From a virus, in the IMG/VR virus record IMGVR_UViG_3300031972_000768, positions 1-31,791 of that record: a stretch of 31,791 nucleotides of DNA. The stretch is one strand, 5' to 3'. The notes beneath the pieces were generated by a model. The model saw only the letters and a list, made by a program, of their open reading frames with translations, did not search any database and had not been told where the DNA came from. Position 1 is the first letter of the stretch. Each line of letters opens with the position of its first letter. This document shows positions 16,462 through 30,819 of the stretch, piece after piece. The position numbers and the translations under genes were made by a program.

Positions 16462-16497
16462 ATTATACACTAGCTAGTCTGATTTGGTCACACTAGC
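16462..16497 (-). promoter_or_regulatory. Sigma70-like promoter with CTAGTGT elements, for tail hub and head genes
   Basis: On the - strand a perfect TATAAT (16467-16462) has GTGACC (16491-16486) 18 bases upstream. CTAGTGT occurs twice, at 16496-16490, overlapping the -35, and at 16474-16468, touching the -10, exactly 22 bp apart. The 10-bp palindrome ACTAGCTAGT (16469-16478) is part of it. It sits in the only sizeable gap of the tail region, between the carbamoyltransferase stop and the tail hub start, so it probably re-starts transcription for the virion genes downstream. Confidence 0.72.
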
Positions 16498-18134
16498 CTC
16501 AGCGTATCACCATCAACAAAAACAACATAATCAAGCTCACTACGCATAAGTGTGCTCAAAGCATCATCAACAGTTTGAACAAGCGGATCACCTGCGAGGT
16601 TGAAGCTAGTATTCATCAGTGCTGGTATACCTGTAAGCTTGTTAAACTCACGGATGATATCTGCCAGTTTACCTGATGAAACAGTCTGCACCCTGCAAGA
16701 TCCATCAGCATGAACGATGCCGCCAAGCTTGCTTAACGCCTCGCGTTTAACGTCAAACGATATAGTCATATCTGGCGCTGACTTTAAACCAAGAGAGTCA
16801 AAGTATTGATCAAAATACTCTTCAAGAATGACACCGGCAAACGGCCTGTACCACTCGCGCTTTTTGATCTTATTCATTTGATCCTGAGCATCAGGTATCG
16901 ATGGATCAAGCAGTATAGACCTATGACCAAGCGCCCTAGCGCCAGCCTCTGGTTTCCCCTCAAATATGGCAACGCTCTTACCTAGCGCAAGTAATTTAGC
17001 TACCTGCTCAGCAGTTGTTTCAGCACCACACATGGGCTCTTCTTCCCAGTAGTGGTAAAAGGTGTCGGTAAGTCGATCGGGCACTATGCCGAATCGTTCG
17101 AACCCATACAGCATAGCCGCACCTATGGTTAGGCCGGTATCGTCAGCAACAGGCTCAAAATAAAACTCAACATCAGGCATGCTCTTTATCAGGTGATTGT
17201 TCGCAACTACGTTCATCGCGTATCCACCAGACAGGCAGACCTTCTTTATGCCAGTTTCATCGACCCACTTTCTAATTAGGCGTAGCACCACATCTTGAGT
17301 CTGAAGCTGAACCTGCTTAGCTTTGTCTGCGTAAAATTGACAATTCTGAGGCACAAGCTCGCTTGTTACTCGATCCACATCATCAAAGAAGCAGTTGCCT
17401 AGCCACCAACGACCCTGTGGATCTGAGTCACCAATATCAGCAACCATCTTTGAGCTTATGGGTATGTCGTTATCATCGAACAGAGGCTCAAAGTCAGTCT
17501 TATCAGAGTAAGCCGCAAGACCCATTGTCTTGCCGTTCTCAAGTGGGTTTTGGTTGATCAGCGTTGTGGCACACTCATATGTCGATACGATACCGAACGG
17601 CGACCTTGCCTCTGTTGTACAGTTAAATTTACTTCGTATCTTTTGTGATACAACATTTGAATATTGAGTGCCTGTGTTTAGATTGAATCGTTTAAACACA
17701 GGAGCCCAGTGACTGCTCTTGTTGAACACGAAAACAGACTCTGCCTCTCTGGCGATCTCTGTGTTCTGCTCATCAAAGAATCCGCTACCATTCCTATCAA
17801 TCACGAATACCAGCGACTCATCAAAGCCACTGTTAAAATACGATATAGCCGCATGCGATGCATGGTGCGTCATGTCAGAGTACTGTTCGACTCTGCAGTC
17901 TAGCTTCTTTTTTATGTACTCTTTGAACAGCCTGCGCTCACTGGTTGCTGAGCAGAATAGAGCGACATCTATTTTACTTTTGTATAACTCAGATGCCTTA
18001 TCAATCGAAAAGAAGGGCATACCATCTCGCTTGTTGCCAGATAGGCGCTCTTCCTTACAAAAGAACTCAAGCTTGCCGTCATTGAAGATAGCAACAGAGC
18101 TATCATGGGTTGCATGGATTGCGGCAATTCTCAT
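16488..18134 (-). CDS. Carbamoyltransferase, NodU/CmcH/TobZ family
   Basis: 548 aa, full length for the family. The N-terminal YrdC-unlike, ASKHA-type part shows HATHDSSVAIFNDGK (H7, H10, D11), an EERLSG block, HHASHAA (H90, H91, H94) and VIDRNGSG (D113); then GLAAYS, LSGGYAMNVVANN (301-313) and EPVADDTGLTIGAA (327-340). The C-terminal part has EAGARALGHRSIL, REWYRPFA and MNTSFN. All match enzymes that carry carbamoyl phosphate through carbamoyl-adenylate to a hydroxyl of a sugar, antibiotic or nucleoside. In a phage, the target could be a surface sugar or a hydroxylated base; unknown. It ends the cargo cassette after two oxygenases. The stop overlaps the promoter of the tail hub. Confidence 0.92.
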   Translation of the reverse strand: MRIAAIHATHDSSVAIFNDGKLEFFCKEERLSGNKRDGMPFFSIDKASELYKSKIDVALFCSATSERRLFKEYIKKKLDCRVEQYSDMTHHASHAAISYFNSGFDESLVFVIDRNGSGFFDEQNTEIAREAESVFVFNKSSHWAPVFKRFNLNTGTQYSNVVSQKIRSKFNCTTEARSPFGIVSTYECATTLINQNPLENGKTMGLAAYSDKTDFEPLFDDNDIPISSKMVADIGDSDPQGRWWLGNCFFDDVDRVTSELVPQNCQFYADKAKQVQLQTQDVVLRLIRKWVDETGIKKVCLSGGYAMNVVANNHLIKSMPDVEFYFEPVADDTGLTIGAAMLYGFERFGIVPDRLTDTFYHYWEEEPMCGAETTAEQVAKLLALGKSVAIFEGKPEAGARALGHRSILLDPSIPDAQDQMNKIKKREWYRPFAGVILEEYFDQYFDSLGLKSAPDMTISFDVKREALSKLGGIVHADGSCRVQTVSSGKLADIIREFNKLTGIPALMNTSFNLAGDPLVQTVDDALSTLMRSELDYVVFVDGDTLRLV

Positions 18135-18634
18135 TTGAAATTCCAGACAATTACTGTGCGCTGTCCACCTTTTACTTCAGGTACACAGTGAACCACCTGA
18201 GAAGGGAACATCAGTATATCGCCCTCTTCAACATGACCGCTCACAACCTTCTGCTTTTCAGCATCCCAGAACACGGTATCTGGAGAGTTGTCCGGCTTTT
18301 CTAGGTAGTACACACAATTCCAGCTTGTTTCTGGATGCCTGTGCCAGTGATGCCAATCACCATCTTGGTACTGCTGGAACCAGTAGTTATCTAGCTGGTA
18401 ATCAACGTGCCTGAACTTGAGACGCAATAACTCATCAAAATCATCTTTTACGTCATTCCATAATATATCCCAATACTCACGCTTTGCATTTTTATCTACA
18501 TTCCAATCGGTATGGGTAACCCAATTCCAGTTATCTCGGATCTCACCACCTTCTGCTGTGTTGATAATTTCCATCAACTGATCTTTCAGTGCGGCGTGAT
18601 TCTTATGCTTAATATGTGTGAATGGAATATCCAT
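18131..18634 (-). CDS. 2-oxoglutarate/Fe(II)-dependent oxygenase (second)
   Basis: 167 aa from ATG at 18634, one base after the stop of the gene upstream, with GAGAG ahead; a longer in-frame reading to 18754 overlaps that gene fully and is unlikely. The beta-helix core reads FQQYQDGDWHHWHRHPETSW, VYYLEKPDNSPDTVFWD, GDILMFPSQVVHCVPEVKGG and RTVIVWNF. Candidate metal ligands are H98/H100, E102 and H149; R159 would hold 2-oxoglutarate. This layout (HxHP, distal H, final R) matches the phage and marine 2OG-Fe(II) group. It could hydroxylate the group that the neighbouring transferase then carbamoylates. Confidence 0.85.
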   Translation of the reverse strand: MDIPFTHIKHKNHAALKDQLMEIINTAEGGEIRDNWNWVTHTDWNVDKNAKREYWDILWNDVKDDFDELLRLKFRHVDYQLDNYWFQQYQDGDWHHWHRHPETSWNCVYYLEKPDNSPDTVFWDAEKQKVVSGHVEEGDILMFPSQVVHCVPEVKGGQRTVIVWNFK

Positions 18635-18635
18635 G

Positions 18636-19421
18636 TTATCTCTCGCTAAATGGTTTGATTGGGCAACGGATGCGATTCTTGGCATTCTCTGTTTGCGATC
18701 TGCCGAACTTGGAATGCGGATTCTTTGCCAGTAGCATTTCTTTCCACTGATCATCCGTTACAAGCTCACACACAACGCGCACTGGTCGCTCTGTTAGTGG
18801 TATTAGCTGAACAATGGGCTCGCCTGCAGGAAAGATAGTAAATATATCGTTACTCTGGCGCGGAACCATAATGTTCACATTGGTATCTGATATACGGCTG
18901 TAATTAACAACCGCAGGTAGTGTTAACTTATGCTCTGGATGATCTTGGTTCCATACAGGCTGTTGCCATAACCAATCAACATCTTCCTCACAATGCAGAA
19001 CCCAAGGCGACTCGATCTTAAGGTGGCAGTATTCTTTAGCAGGCAGGTATTCGCCACGCTGAGATTCTGCATGATATTCTGCAGAGGTCATGCCGTCAGC
19101 AAAGCGCCACTTGTATGATCCTGTTACACCGTCTTTTGATTCAGCCGTAAAAGCGAGGTCAGACCAGAACGGCATCATTACACCCTTCTTGAATAACCCT
19201 GTAAAACCGGCGCAAGACTTCATTGAGAATTCAAACTCAAGCTTGTCGGTATCGACCTTGGTTTTACTTGGTAGCCTCTTGAACCACTCTGGGATCATGT
19301 ATGCGCTTTTAACTACTGGGTAGTTATAGAACACATCTGGTCGATTTGTGTAGCAGTACAGCACAACCTCATCAGGCTTGCTTAGCTTATTTTTTAACCA
19401 CTTAATCAAAACTCTACCCAA
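18636..19421 (-). CDS. Unknown protein of the oxygenase-carbamoyltransferase cassette
   Basis: 261 aa when read from TTG at 19421, which overlaps the end of the upstream oxygenase by 16 bases; the true start is uncertain (first ATG only at residue 42). Sequence features: VLYCYTNRPDVFYNYPVVKS, then YMIPEWFKRLPSK and MKSCAGFTGLFKKGVMMPFW, with beta-rich middle ending in IVQLIPLTERPVRVVCELV. It has many aromatic residues and a C-terminal basic Asn/Arg block. I do not recognise the family; marine phage genomes seem to carry related genes beside oxygenases. A cupin-like or double-stranded beta-helix fold is possible. Confidence 0.72.
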   Translation of the reverse strand: MGRVLIKWLKNKLSKPDEVVLYCYTNRPDVFYNYPVVKSAYMIPEWFKRLPSKTKVDTDKLEFEFSMKSCAGFTGLFKKGVMMPFWSDLAFTAESKDGVTGSYKWRFADGMTSAEYHAESQRGEYLPAKEYCHLKIESPWVLHCEEDVDWLWQQPVWNQDHPEHKLTLPAVVNYSRISDTNVNIMVPRQSNDIFTIFPAGEPIVQLIPLTERPVRVVCELVTDDQWKEMLLAKNPHSKFGRSQTENAKNRIRCPIKPFSER

Positions 19422-20014
19422 CCTGTAAGAATGTATTTTGTATTACTCATTGGCGGGTTGCCTCTATGAGTATGCGTCAGCCCAGATGGGAATATGACCA
19501 GAGTGCCTTTCTTTGGTTTGACGCGTTTAGGGAAGTATAGAAACTCAGTTTCGCCACCCTCTTCTACATCGTTCAGGTAAAGTATGTAAGCTAGAACCCT
19601 GCGAGATGATGCCGCATCGCCCTGTTCGCAGTGCCAGATATGGTATCCACCACCAACCATAGTACGCTGAATCTTCTGCGCCTGAATGGTGTGTGTATCC
19701 ATTGTGTGCAAGATATCGAACTGGTCAGAGTAAGCTTTATAGCCCACATCCCAGAATCGATCTATGAATGTTTTATGAAGGTCGCGTGAGTGTACGAATG
19801 ATAACTCTTCTTCAAAACCGCAAAGCGAGTCATCTTTCTTTTGGAACGCTGGGGTTTGTTGCCACTTCTGGCGATCTGTTGTAAACCCTGCCTCATCCAT
19901 CTTCTCAAAATAATCAATGACCTCATCGCACCACTCTGGCGAGATGAAGTCATCGATAATGCCCACAAAATTATGTGAGTGATAGCTAGGCTGGATCTCC
20001 TGCTTCTGAGTCAT
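19406..20014 (-). CDS. 2-oxoglutarate/Fe(II)-dependent oxygenase (first), P4H-like
   Basis: 202 aa from ATG at 20014, chosen since AGGAGA lies upstream (a TTG one codon earlier also fits). FVGIIDDFISPEWCDEVIDY is the common first helix-strand. The double-stranded beta-helix follows: YHIWHCEQGD (metal site H128-x-E130), LAYILYLNDVEEGGETEF, KGTLVIFPSGLTHTHRG (distal H181 or H183) and KYILTGW with K193 as the 2-oxoglutarate contact. An HxE in place of the more common HxD is seen in this phage subgroup. The gene starts inside the preceding small gene by 29 bases. Substrate unknown. Confidence 0.88.
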   Translation of the reverse strand: MTQKQEIQPSYHSHNFVGIIDDFISPEWCDEVIDYFEKMDEAGFTTDRQKWQQTPAFQKKDDSLCGFEEELSFVHSRDLHKTFIDRFWDVGYKAYSDQFDILHTMDTHTIQAQKIQRTMVGGGYHIWHCEQGDAASSRRVLAYILYLNDVEEGGETEFLYFPKRVKPKKGTLVIFPSGLTHTHRGNPPMSNTKYILTGWVEF

Positions 20015-20210
20015 CAACTGGTTCTCCTATGCTGTCATCCTGCACATTCTTCCACTCAGGTGTTTCGAATGTCATGGTTGATCTGTTTAGGATATCACCA
20101 ATTGCAACATTACCTCCAGTAATGTCAATAAACTCTATTGCAGAATGCATCTCAGGCTTTGTCACATGAAGTGACACTACTGAATCATCAACTCCGATTT
20201 GTGCCCACAT
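19986..20210 (-). CDS. 74-aa acidic protein between adhesin and oxygenase
   Basis: Starts at ATG in TAATG, overlapping the stop of the Gly-rich protein. Sequence blocks: MWAQIGVDDSVVSLHVTKPE, then IEFIDITGGNVAIGDILNRS, then an acidic C-terminus (GEPVDDSEAGDPA). Mixed alpha/beta with no known motif. Its last 29 bases are shared with the start of the first oxygenase, whose AGGAGA site lies inside it, so translation is likely coupled. Function not recognised. Confidence 0.65.
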   Translation of the reverse strand: MWAQIGVDDSVVSLHVTKPEMHSAIEFIDITGGNVAIGDILNRSTMTFETPEWKNVQDDSIGEPVDDSEAGDPA

Positions 20211-28030: not shown

Positions 28031-28354
28031 TTAATCCCAAACCTCACTTAACTGGCTTTTTAGCTCCCTATCCTCTATCAGGTTATCTATAAACCTTCGA
28101 TCTATATTGTTTCCGTGAAGGAACTTTTTCTTGCAGTTTTTTGCCCTAGTGCTTCTTAACTTACACTTCCTACAGGTGCTCTTCTGCTTTACATAATACA
28201 GATGGGTTCCACACTTAGGGCATGGCTTATCCCTCCTATACCAAGTATCACCTCGACTTAGGGCCATGTCGTAATCATGTGCATTAGCCTCATCCATTCT
28301 ATGTCTGCGCATGGTGTCTGTTGGGCCGTACTTCTTTAGAGCTTCAGGTATCAT
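28031..28354 (-). CDS. 107-aa zinc-ribbon protein
   Basis: GGAGGGG precedes the ATG. Residues 45-64 make a CxxC...CxxC ribbon (CPKC at 45-48 and CRKC at 61-64), flanked by a basic region (KLRSTRAKNCKKKF) that would contact nucleic acid. The N-terminus is helical with Arg-His pairs. No nuclease core is seen, although the Asp/His-rich start (DEANAHDYDM) resembles parts of small HNH-associated proteins. Last of the small-gene chain before the terminase. Confidence 0.68.
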   Translation of the reverse strand: MIPEALKKYGPTDTMRRHRMDEANAHDYDMALSRGDTWYRRDKPCPKCGTHLYYVKQKSTCRKCKLRSTRAKNCKKKFLHGNNIDRRFIDNLIEDRELKSQLSEVWD

Positions 28355-28902: not shown

Positions 28903-29087
28903 CACTCTTCCTCCACTACAGGTACATCACGCCATTCTTCAGACACAATCCTACCTCCGTAATAGCTAGCCTCGTTGTGCTTCCACTTCTGCTGAAGGAT
29001 GCGTAGTTTATGTGGATGCAAAAAGTTATCTTGTGGAGCCTCACGCTCAACAAACCGTAGTTCATTAGTTGGTATCCAGTTACTCAT
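28902..29087 (-). CDS. 61-aa small unknown protein
   Basis: ATG at 29087 overlaps the TGA of the 43-aa gene (ATGA) with GGAGGAG upstream. The sequence contains LRFVEREAPQDNFLHPHKLR and ILQQKWKHNEASYYGG, with a C-terminal RDVPVVEEE. The RFVER and ILQQKW pieces suggest an edge-strand plus helix seen in short phage proteins. No assignment. Confidence 0.65.
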   Translation of the reverse strand: MSNWIPTNELRFVEREAPQDNFLHPHKLRILQQKWKHNEASYYGGRIVSEEWRDVPVVEEE

Positions 29088-29215
29088 ATCTCCTCCATTG
29101 TAAAGCGGTTGTAACGGTTCTTTAGTGACTGGCGTAAGTCATGTGCATCGGTTGCACTAATGACAGTCGTGTACTTGCCACCATCTTCCCAGTATTGGAT
29201 ACGGTACTGTTTCAT
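29084..29215 (-). CDS. 43-aa small unknown protein
   Basis: Starts at ATG 29215, overlapping the TGA of the alpha-CTD-like gene (ATGA), and ends in TGA 29086-29084. MKQYRIQYWEDGGKYTTVIS is a strand-loop-strand, followed by a helix ATDAHDLRQSLKNRYNRFTM, the pattern of a beta-beta-alpha mini-domain. Its 3' end carries the GGAGGAG site of the next gene. Confidence 0.62.
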   Translation of the reverse strand: MKQYRIQYWEDGGKYTTVISATDAHDLRQSLKNRYNRFTMEEI

Positions 29216-29655
29216 AACAACTCCTCAAAATCCTCAAATGACAGGTGGTCAATGTCGTGGCTATCTAAAACCTTTAGCAGATACCTGTGGTACTTGCCGA
29301 CATTCTGAACGTAGTCATACATAACTCTGTTATTTTCAGCTATTGACTCATTATTTTTAGATAGGTTTTCTATCAATTCTTTTTGGCCTAGATACTTACC
29401 GTTAATACAATCGATAGTATCGTGCGCCCTTTTTAGCTTAAACCCTATCTCAGCGGTTCTATAATCGGCTGGGACTTTGAGATTAAATAACGCAATTATC
29501 TCCCTATCTGCCTTGCGACCGATGTTTGGCAAGTTAGAAAACGTAAAGTAAGTGTAGTAATAGCTTACAATCTTATCGCGTGACTCAAGACCTGCCGCCT
29601 TTAGAGCGTTCTGGCTTCTGACCGATAACTGATCAATTAATCTTGGCTGACTCAT
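29212..29655 (-). CDS. RNA polymerase alpha-CTD-like domain protein with coiled coil
   Basis: 147 aa from ATG at 29655, selected because GGAGGG lies seven bases upstream and the frame above it overlaps another gene. Residues 6-55 (LIDQLSVRSQNALKAAGLES, then SNLPNIGRKADREIIAL) line up with the alpha subunit C-terminal domain of bacterial RNA polymerase. Counterparts of its UP-element contacts are present: R13 (R265 in E. coli), N16 (N268), N44 (N294), G46 (G296) and K48 (K298); S299 is Ala. Two extra residues lie between helices. After residue 60 comes a charged helical region (LGQKELIENLSKNNESIAEN). It may bind promoter DNA or compete with host alpha. The related helix-hairpin-helix fold of other DNA-binding proteins is the main alternative. 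Confidence 0.72.
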   Translation of the reverse strand: MSQPRLIDQLSVRSQNALKAAGLESRDKIVSYYYTYFTFSNLPNIGRKADREIIALFNLKVPADYRTAEIGFKLKRAHDTIDCINGKYLGQKELIENLSKNNESIAENNRVMYDYVQNVGKYHRYLLKVLDSHDIDHLSFEDFEELL

Positions 29656-29741
29656 AGTACGCCCTCCAGCCAAGCGGCAAAGATAAATAGACCAAGTATT
29701 ACAGTCATGGCGTATGGGACGCTCTCCATCCAGAATCTCAT
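29652..29741 (-). CDS. 29-aa single-span membrane micropeptide
   Basis: ATG at 29741 overlaps the TGA of the 119-aa gene (ATGA), and the TGA at 29654-29652 overlaps the ATG of the alpha-CTD-like gene (ATGA). Sequence MRFWMESVPYAMTVILGLFI then FAAWLEGVL: one membrane helix of about 18 residues with positive N-end and an acidic residue near the C-end. The four-base overlaps at both ends make chance very unlikely. Target unknown. Confidence 0.7.
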   Translation of the reverse strand: MRFWMESVPYAMTVILGLFIFAAWLEGVL

Positions 29742-30373: not shown

Positions 30374-30407
30374 ATTATACACGCATTAATATCTGTTGCA
30401 ACACTAG
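30374..30407 (-). promoter_or_regulatory. Sigma70-like promoter with CTAGTGT element, for the small-gene chain
   Basis: On the - strand TTGCAA (30401-30396) and a perfect TATAAT (30379-30374) are 16 bases apart. CTAGTGT (30407-30401) touches the -35 on its upstream side, and GTG precedes the -10 as in the promoter at 16462. It lies in a 75-base gap between the primase-like gene and the 72-aa gene, with the -10 box 32 bases before that start codon. Confidence 0.75.
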
Positions 30408-30417
30408 TCGCGGCAAA

Positions 30418-30819
30418 TTAATTTTCGTTTGCCCTTGATCGCATCTCAGCAATACCTTGTAGCCTTGAATGCGCCAATTGTACACGCCTCTTATCGGCTA
30501 GTGTGGTTGGCGGTGTTACCTTAGCCATCTCGACTATTAACTTATCCTGCACCTCTTTCTCTTGCATCTCACGACTAATCACTGGGCGCTTGTAGTCAGA
30601 GTCTGGTGCGAATACCTCATCCTTGTTTAGTCCAAGAGCATCAGCCACATCGACAGCGCTACAACCACATACAAAACAATATCCACCAACAGATCCATCG
30701 CGTCTCTCCGATAACATAAGGTTTAAGTCTTTACCATTGTGTACAGGACATGGCGCCCTGTACTTGTTGCCGAACTTCTTATAGCGTGGCAATGCCGCCA
30801 ATACTGACTCAATACTCAC
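30418..30819 (-). CDS. Stand-alone primase zinc-finger domain protein
   Basis: 133 aa, GTG start inside the end of the helicase gene (11-base overlap). CPVH (C24, H27) and CFVC (C48, C51; C53 adjacent) give the CHC2-type site of DnaG or T7-like primases, preceded by FGNKYRAPCPVHNGKDLNLM. No TOPRIM or RNA-polymerase domain follows: the rest is a basic helical tail (LADKRRVQLAHSRLQGIAEM). The catalytic half may be encoded outside the window, so this could be one part of a split primase, or a regulator derived from it. Confidence 0.85.
   Translation of the reverse strand: MSIESVLAALPRYKKFGNKYRAPCPVHNGKDLNLMLSERRDGSVGGYCFVCGCSAVDVADALGLNKDEVFAPDSDYKRPVISREMQEKEVQDKLIVEMAKVTPPTTLADKRRVQLAHSRLQGIAEMRSRANEN

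Follow-up and report, generated by a model that had tools for sequence, protein, structure and literature searches.

Why should a phage carry a gene for what appears to be the DNA-binding tip of the alpha subunit of bacterial RNA polymerase, with the polymerase-binding part of that subunit left out? The question arises at positions 29212-29655 of a 31,791-base virus sequence, here called the window, which is an entire IMG/VR record. The strongest bacterial promoters, ribosomal RNA ones included, owe their output to UP elements, and a phage-borne polymerase tip that binds them could shut down or redirect UP-driven output while leaving the enzyme itself untouched. By profile and alignment comparison, the product of this gene is a detached alpha C-terminal domain (alpha-CTD), a compact helix-hairpin-helix domain related to that of RNA polymerase alpha, and it probably belongs to a little-studied kind of transcription regulator.

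The phage and the gene

The window belongs to a marine-type tailed phage, encoding a terminase, portal, scaffold, capsid and ejection-type proteins. The best match to its capsid among annotated phages is Octadecabacter Antarctic DB virus 2, at 57% identity; by capsid and terminase the closest isolates are Octadecabacter and Paracoccus phages, while the closest genome match is a fragment of a Pseudomonadales MAG. Among the window ORFs scanned with PHROGs, neither a phage RNA polymerase nor a sigma factor was found in this record, which may be a fragment, and the phage therefore appears to use the polymerase of its host. The structural region carries an unusual cargo between its structural genes (16488-20017, minus strand), consisting of a Nol-like carbamoyltransferase along with two ORFs that match 2OG-Fe(II) oxygenase PHROGs; of these two, one also has endonuclease PHROGs matches.

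The alpha-CTD-like gene is preceded by helicase, primase, orf72, orf119 and TM29, and is followed by small genes and the terminase. It lies on the minus strand, with an ATG at 29655 and a TGA stop at 29214-29212, and encodes 147 aa; a good ribosome-binding site, GGAGG (29663-29667, minus strand), stands 7 nt 5′ of the ATG. An earlier sequence-only reading of this DNA had called a gene at this position, and its frame proved sound. The gene overlaps both of its neighbors through an ATGA, at its start with TM29, a 29-aa membrane micro-gene directly upstream (29652-29741, minus strand), and at its stop with orf43, the next gene downstream (29084-29215, minus strand). Its G+C content of 39.6% is the lowest in the neighborhood, against 46.7% for the window.

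Identity of the domain

A Pfam-A scan of the 147-aa protein returned a single family, PF03118 (RNA_pol_A_CTD), over residues 9-55 (29491-29631, minus strand; E 3.1e-5), with no match to other helix-hairpin-helix families such as HHH_5 up to E 1. Because the score of about 24.1-24.4 bits (24.4 in the genome search) lies only marginally above the curated cut-off of 23.8, we built an independent profile from 33 phage and bacterial alpha-CTDs, leaving the window protein out. On this profile the window protein scores 26.2 bits, as against 18.1 for the best of 20,000 shuffles, and ranks first among 27,176 ORFs from related phage loci, with the next distinct ORF at 9.4. Comparison by hhalign gives a probability of 95.5% (E 1.4e-8); the controls, comprising five shuffles, four neighboring proteins and the tail alone, stay at or below 2.1%. 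In a phmmer search of solved structures the three best-ranked matches are RNA polymerase alpha, at weak E-values of 0.24-0.95, and no close homologue was found in annotated phages, IMG/VR or 50 related contigs.

Structural modeling agrees with this assignment. The AlphaFold model guided by an alignment of the window protein with 28 others (27 alpha-CTDs and an ORF of contig L068, considered below) leans on these alpha-CTD relatives and reaches a pLDDT of about 95 over residues 11-60. RNA polymerase alpha chains make up 21 of its 26 Foldseek matches, headed by 7vpd_S (probability 1.00, TM 0.76 by target), with E-values that stay above 0.4 because the matched domain is short. Single-sequence AlphaFold gave a pLDDT of 48 and, through Foldseek, no useful structural match.

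The alpha N-terminal domain, which provides dimerization and beta/beta′ binding, is absent: PF03118 is the only family found and the domain already begins at residue 9. Pfam also found no Sigma70_r4. The C-terminal tail (residues 65-147; 29215-29463, minus strand) is predicted to form two long helices, 65-99 and 103-131, modeled with low to moderate confidence (pLDDT 58-75), and neither Pfam nor hhalign (0.13% for the tail alone) found a family match or relative for it. The earlier proposal of an alpha-CTD in which a helical tail takes the place of the polymerase-binding domain is thus borne out by profile and structure comparison, and the protein did not fall among unrelated helix-hairpin-helix proteins, since Pfam, phmmer and Foldseek all favor RNA polymerase alpha.

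The DNA-contact and sigma-contact faces

The five UP-contact residues that had been read as kept, R265, N268, N294, G296 and K298 of E. coli alpha, are indeed all present in the alignment, as R13, N16, N44, G46 and K48. S299 of E. coli alpha also contacts DNA; its equivalent here is alanine (A49), as is that of C269. A two-residue insertion (YY) separates the second and third helix.

The opposite holds for the surface through which alpha meets sigma. The acidic 261 surface of E. coli alpha touches sigma region 4, and at positions 257-259 and 261 the window protein reads RLIQ, where most phage relatives read I-E/D-E/D-E/D; of 31 phage-borne relatives, 26 carry E or D at position 261. Placing the alignment gap differently leaves the window protein one acid, D8. 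The acidic surface, a functional trait that PF03118 membership does not require, was therefore not found, and both the activator-contact position 287 and the sigma-contact position 261 are changed. As judged from the alignment, the DNA-gripping face is kept and the sigma-touching face is lost, which favors occupancy or competition over classical activation.

A single-gene cassette

Contig L068, whose terminase is 80% identical, has both flanks of the alpha-CTD-like gene and lacks the gene. TM29 there runs directly into orf43 through one ATGA; in the window, each end of the gene has an ATGA of its own. The gene is thus a single-gene cassette, with TM29 marking the insertion slot. TM29 is kept in L066, L067, L068 and L070 while the genes around it change, and in L061 the position just ahead of the orf61b homologue is taken by a 93-aa ORF whose helix-turn-helix similarity is no more than weak. 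The conserved TM29 with its changing neighbors, the L061 ORF included, points to a slot for exchangeable accessory genes.

The TM29 product is a single-pass membrane protein of 29-33 aa across relatives, with the sequence MRFWMESVPYAMTVILGLFIFAAWLEGVL in the window. Near the empty site of L068, a 186-aa ORF (324-881) was considered as a member of the family; it has the YY two-residue insertion and some helix-hairpin-helix core residues (phmmer E 0.013), and was rejected on an hhalign probability of 4% and the loss of the DNA contacts. The window further encodes a 107-aa protein (28031-28354, minus strand) with a zinc-ribbon-like stretch, its Zn_ribbon_RPB9 match being weak and below the cut-off, and near-identical copies of it occur in L061 and L068.

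A UP-like site at the operon promoter

The run orf72-orf119-TM29-alpha-CTD is headed by P30374 (TTGCAA-16-TATAAT; 30374-30401, minus strand), which precedes orf72 and is the joint best promoter of the scanned region at 10/12. The consensus of the UP distal subsite is AAAWWTWTTTT. The stretch AAAATTAATTT (30415-30425, minus strand) agrees with it at 10/11 positions and ends 13 nt before the P30374 -35; it is the only minus-strand 10/11 match in the window, and its spacing to P30374 is correct (the distal subsite occupies -58 to -45; PMC2613000). None of the other 15 promoter-like sites exceeds 8/11, and by calculation about 0.01 matches at 10/11 would be expected over 16 promoters and nine spacings. 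The site fits UP-element binding by the alpha-CTD-like protein, and it may simply serve the host alpha-CTD.

A second motif, CTAGTGT, had been proposed to mark phage promoters next to the -35. The two best promoters do carry copies of it, and exact copies of GTGTATAAT occur only there, with near-matches at chance level. With five copies of CTAGTGT observed against 5.2 expected, however, the motif is no more frequent than chance; we rejected it as a phage operator, and this part of the proposal is unsupported.

Detached alpha-CTDs in other phages

Seven named isolates have detached alpha-CTDs, supported by Pfam in three of them, and so do 37 places in IMG/VR, two of these being the copies in the Goe8 record. 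A translated search with E. coli alpha recovered Goe8, Ruegeria V16 and Mazun (Pfam 78, 41 and 50 bits, respectively), and one with the Goe8 domain added Atraxi, TrippleS and Morrill, as well as Zenteno07 weakly; several further matches in the annotated-phage collection are full-length host rpoA. In an aligned set of 32 proteins, which includes the window protein and the L068 ORF, PF03118 was present in 31 and Sigma70_r4 in 13, and none of the 25 families listed of 26 was an alpha N-terminal family. Genes next to them at the loci sampled have phage-family matches, to a DNA polymerase, an Erf-like annealing protein and a DnaD-like loader. The alpha-CTD is C-terminal in most phage relatives, and N-terminal, as in the window protein, in L162, L164 and V16.

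In a group of proteins from the IMG/VR loci L156-L192 (for example L163:2527-3195 and L167:2341-3204), sigma-70 region 4 and an alpha-CTD share one chain, and some of these fusions carry an N-terminal Cro-type helix-turn-helix, while none has an alpha N-terminal domain among its listed families; from their domain content they look like one-piece promoter-recognition factors. The fusion of relatives to sigma region 4 or helix-turn-helix domains points to transcription control. Detached alpha-CTDs are found in phages whose hosts belong to several groups, in many cases alongside sigma region 4, and this wide spread and choice of partner make them look like a recurrent, undescribed class of phage transcription factors.

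The sequence-only reading knew of no phage system that uses a free alpha-CTD. As to occurrence this does not hold, given Goe8, V16, Mazun, others and dozens of IMG/VR contigs; as to function it may stand, as full-text searches, whose coverage leaves out most subscription journals, found no paper describing what a free phage alpha-CTD does. This kind of sequence is already in the databases, once annotated as RNA polymerase subunit alpha, and the window protein is a divergent variant of it.

Proposed mechanism and alternatives

Our favored model, which we judge slightly better than even, is that of an accessory phage regulator that would bind AT-rich upstream DNA and modulate or compete with the host alpha-CTD. 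The DNA binding, dimerization, competition and regulation that we infer in this model would proceed as follows. At UP-like sites, the protein would most likely bind AT-rich DNA upstream of promoters through the minor groove, and it would probably do so as a dimer, or else together with a partner that its tail retains. There it would occupy, or compete for, the sites of host alpha-CTD and so modulate the transcription that host RNA polymerase carries out in the infected cell, the UP-like site before the promoter of its own operon being a candidate target. Displacement of host alpha-CTD, as first suggested, is possible.

It is also conceivable, if unlikely, that the protein acts at phage promoters as an activator or adaptor, recruiting host RNA polymerase via sigma region 4 or host alpha-CTD and taking the place of one host alpha-CTD at the UP site. 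The retained alpha-CTD and the UP-like site at the operon promoter are in keeping with such a role, as are the phage relatives fused to sigma region 4, most of which have the acidic 261 surface. The window protein, however, has no sigma domain and shows RLIQ in place of the known E. coli sigma contact, which makes the activator role through sigma region 4 that had been considered for it less likely.

Rather more doubtful is the reuse of the alpha-CTD fold as a plain helix-hairpin-helix DNA module in replication, packaging or nucleoid binding. The gene does stand between replication genes (helicase and primase) and the terminase, the V16 relative joins its domain to a MazG-like C-terminal part, and the tail has no transcription-factor match; yet the preference of Pfam, phmmer and Foldseek for RNA polymerase alpha over other helix-hairpin-helix proteins speaks against it. 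We regard as improbable a protein decoy that would bind host transcription factors touching alpha-CTD, with no need to bind DNA: a free alpha-CTD would present the same faces, and other kinds of phage attack on alpha-CTD are known (PMC2988021, PMC7552054), but here it is the DNA-contact residues that are kept and the 287 and 261 protein-contact positions that have changed. Chance resemblance, or the decay of a horizontally acquired fragment without function, might be read from the near-cut-off score, the lack of a close homologue and the low G+C, but is very improbable given the intact frame, the good ribosome-binding site and the exact ATGA coupling on both sides; the shuffle and hhalign controls already go most of the way to refuting the chance reading.

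Comparison with known systems

With the CTD of bacterial RNA polymerase alpha, the window protein shares the fold, the helix pattern and the equivalents of R265, N268, N294, G296 and K298. Unlike bacterial alpha, it has no N-terminal domain, carries its alpha-CTD at the N-terminus, contains a two-residue insertion, has lost the acidic 261 surface and has gained a helical tail.

Its phage counterparts differ in how the domain is mounted. QDP42789.1 of Bacillus phage vB_BmeM-Goe8 ('RNA polymerase subunit alpha') is likewise a phage alpha-CTD without the alpha N-terminal domain, although there the domain is C-terminal, following about 145 unrelated residues, and the 261 surface is kept. Gp23 of Ruegeria phage vB_RpoS-V16 (AWY09459.1) resembles the window protein in its near-N-terminal alpha-CTD, its non-polymerase C-terminal part, its marine host and its retained DNA contacts, and differs in having a MazG-like C-terminal part and the acidic 261 surface, at an identity of about 28% or less. 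This protein (L140:2016-2882) is annotated in RefSeq as a pyrophosphatase, and its C-terminal part reads like MazG. The Microbacterium phages Mazun (gp26), Atraxi, TrippleS and Morrill also encode small alpha-CTD proteins ('DNA binding protein'), confirmed by Pfam for Mazun gp26 and by translated search for the other three; in Mazun gp26 the alpha-CTD is at the C-terminus and some DNA-contact positions are changed. The IMG/VR fusions (for example L163, L165-L169 and L173-L178) again show a detached alpha-CTD in phage, but with Sigma70_r4 and sometimes an N-terminal helix-turn-helix, neither of which the window protein has.

T4 Alt and ModA and the phiKMV-like Rac likewise interfere with host alpha-CTD function, a comparison of how they work with no claim of sequence relation. 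T4 Alt and ModA disable host alpha-CTD by ADP-ribosylation of Arg265 (PMC2988021), and Rac causes cleavage of the host alpha linker (PMC7552054); unlike the window protein, all three are enzymes or enzyme-like, and act by modifying alpha or by having it cleaved. We tentatively raise the broader possibility, itself less than an even prospect, that phages repeatedly capture a polymerase-free alpha-CTD that would compete at UP elements, silence UP-dependent host promoters and tune phage promoters such as P30374. If this is true, phages would have, in competition by a free domain, a third means of influencing host alpha-CTD function, beside modification by Alt and ModA and cleavage through Rac.
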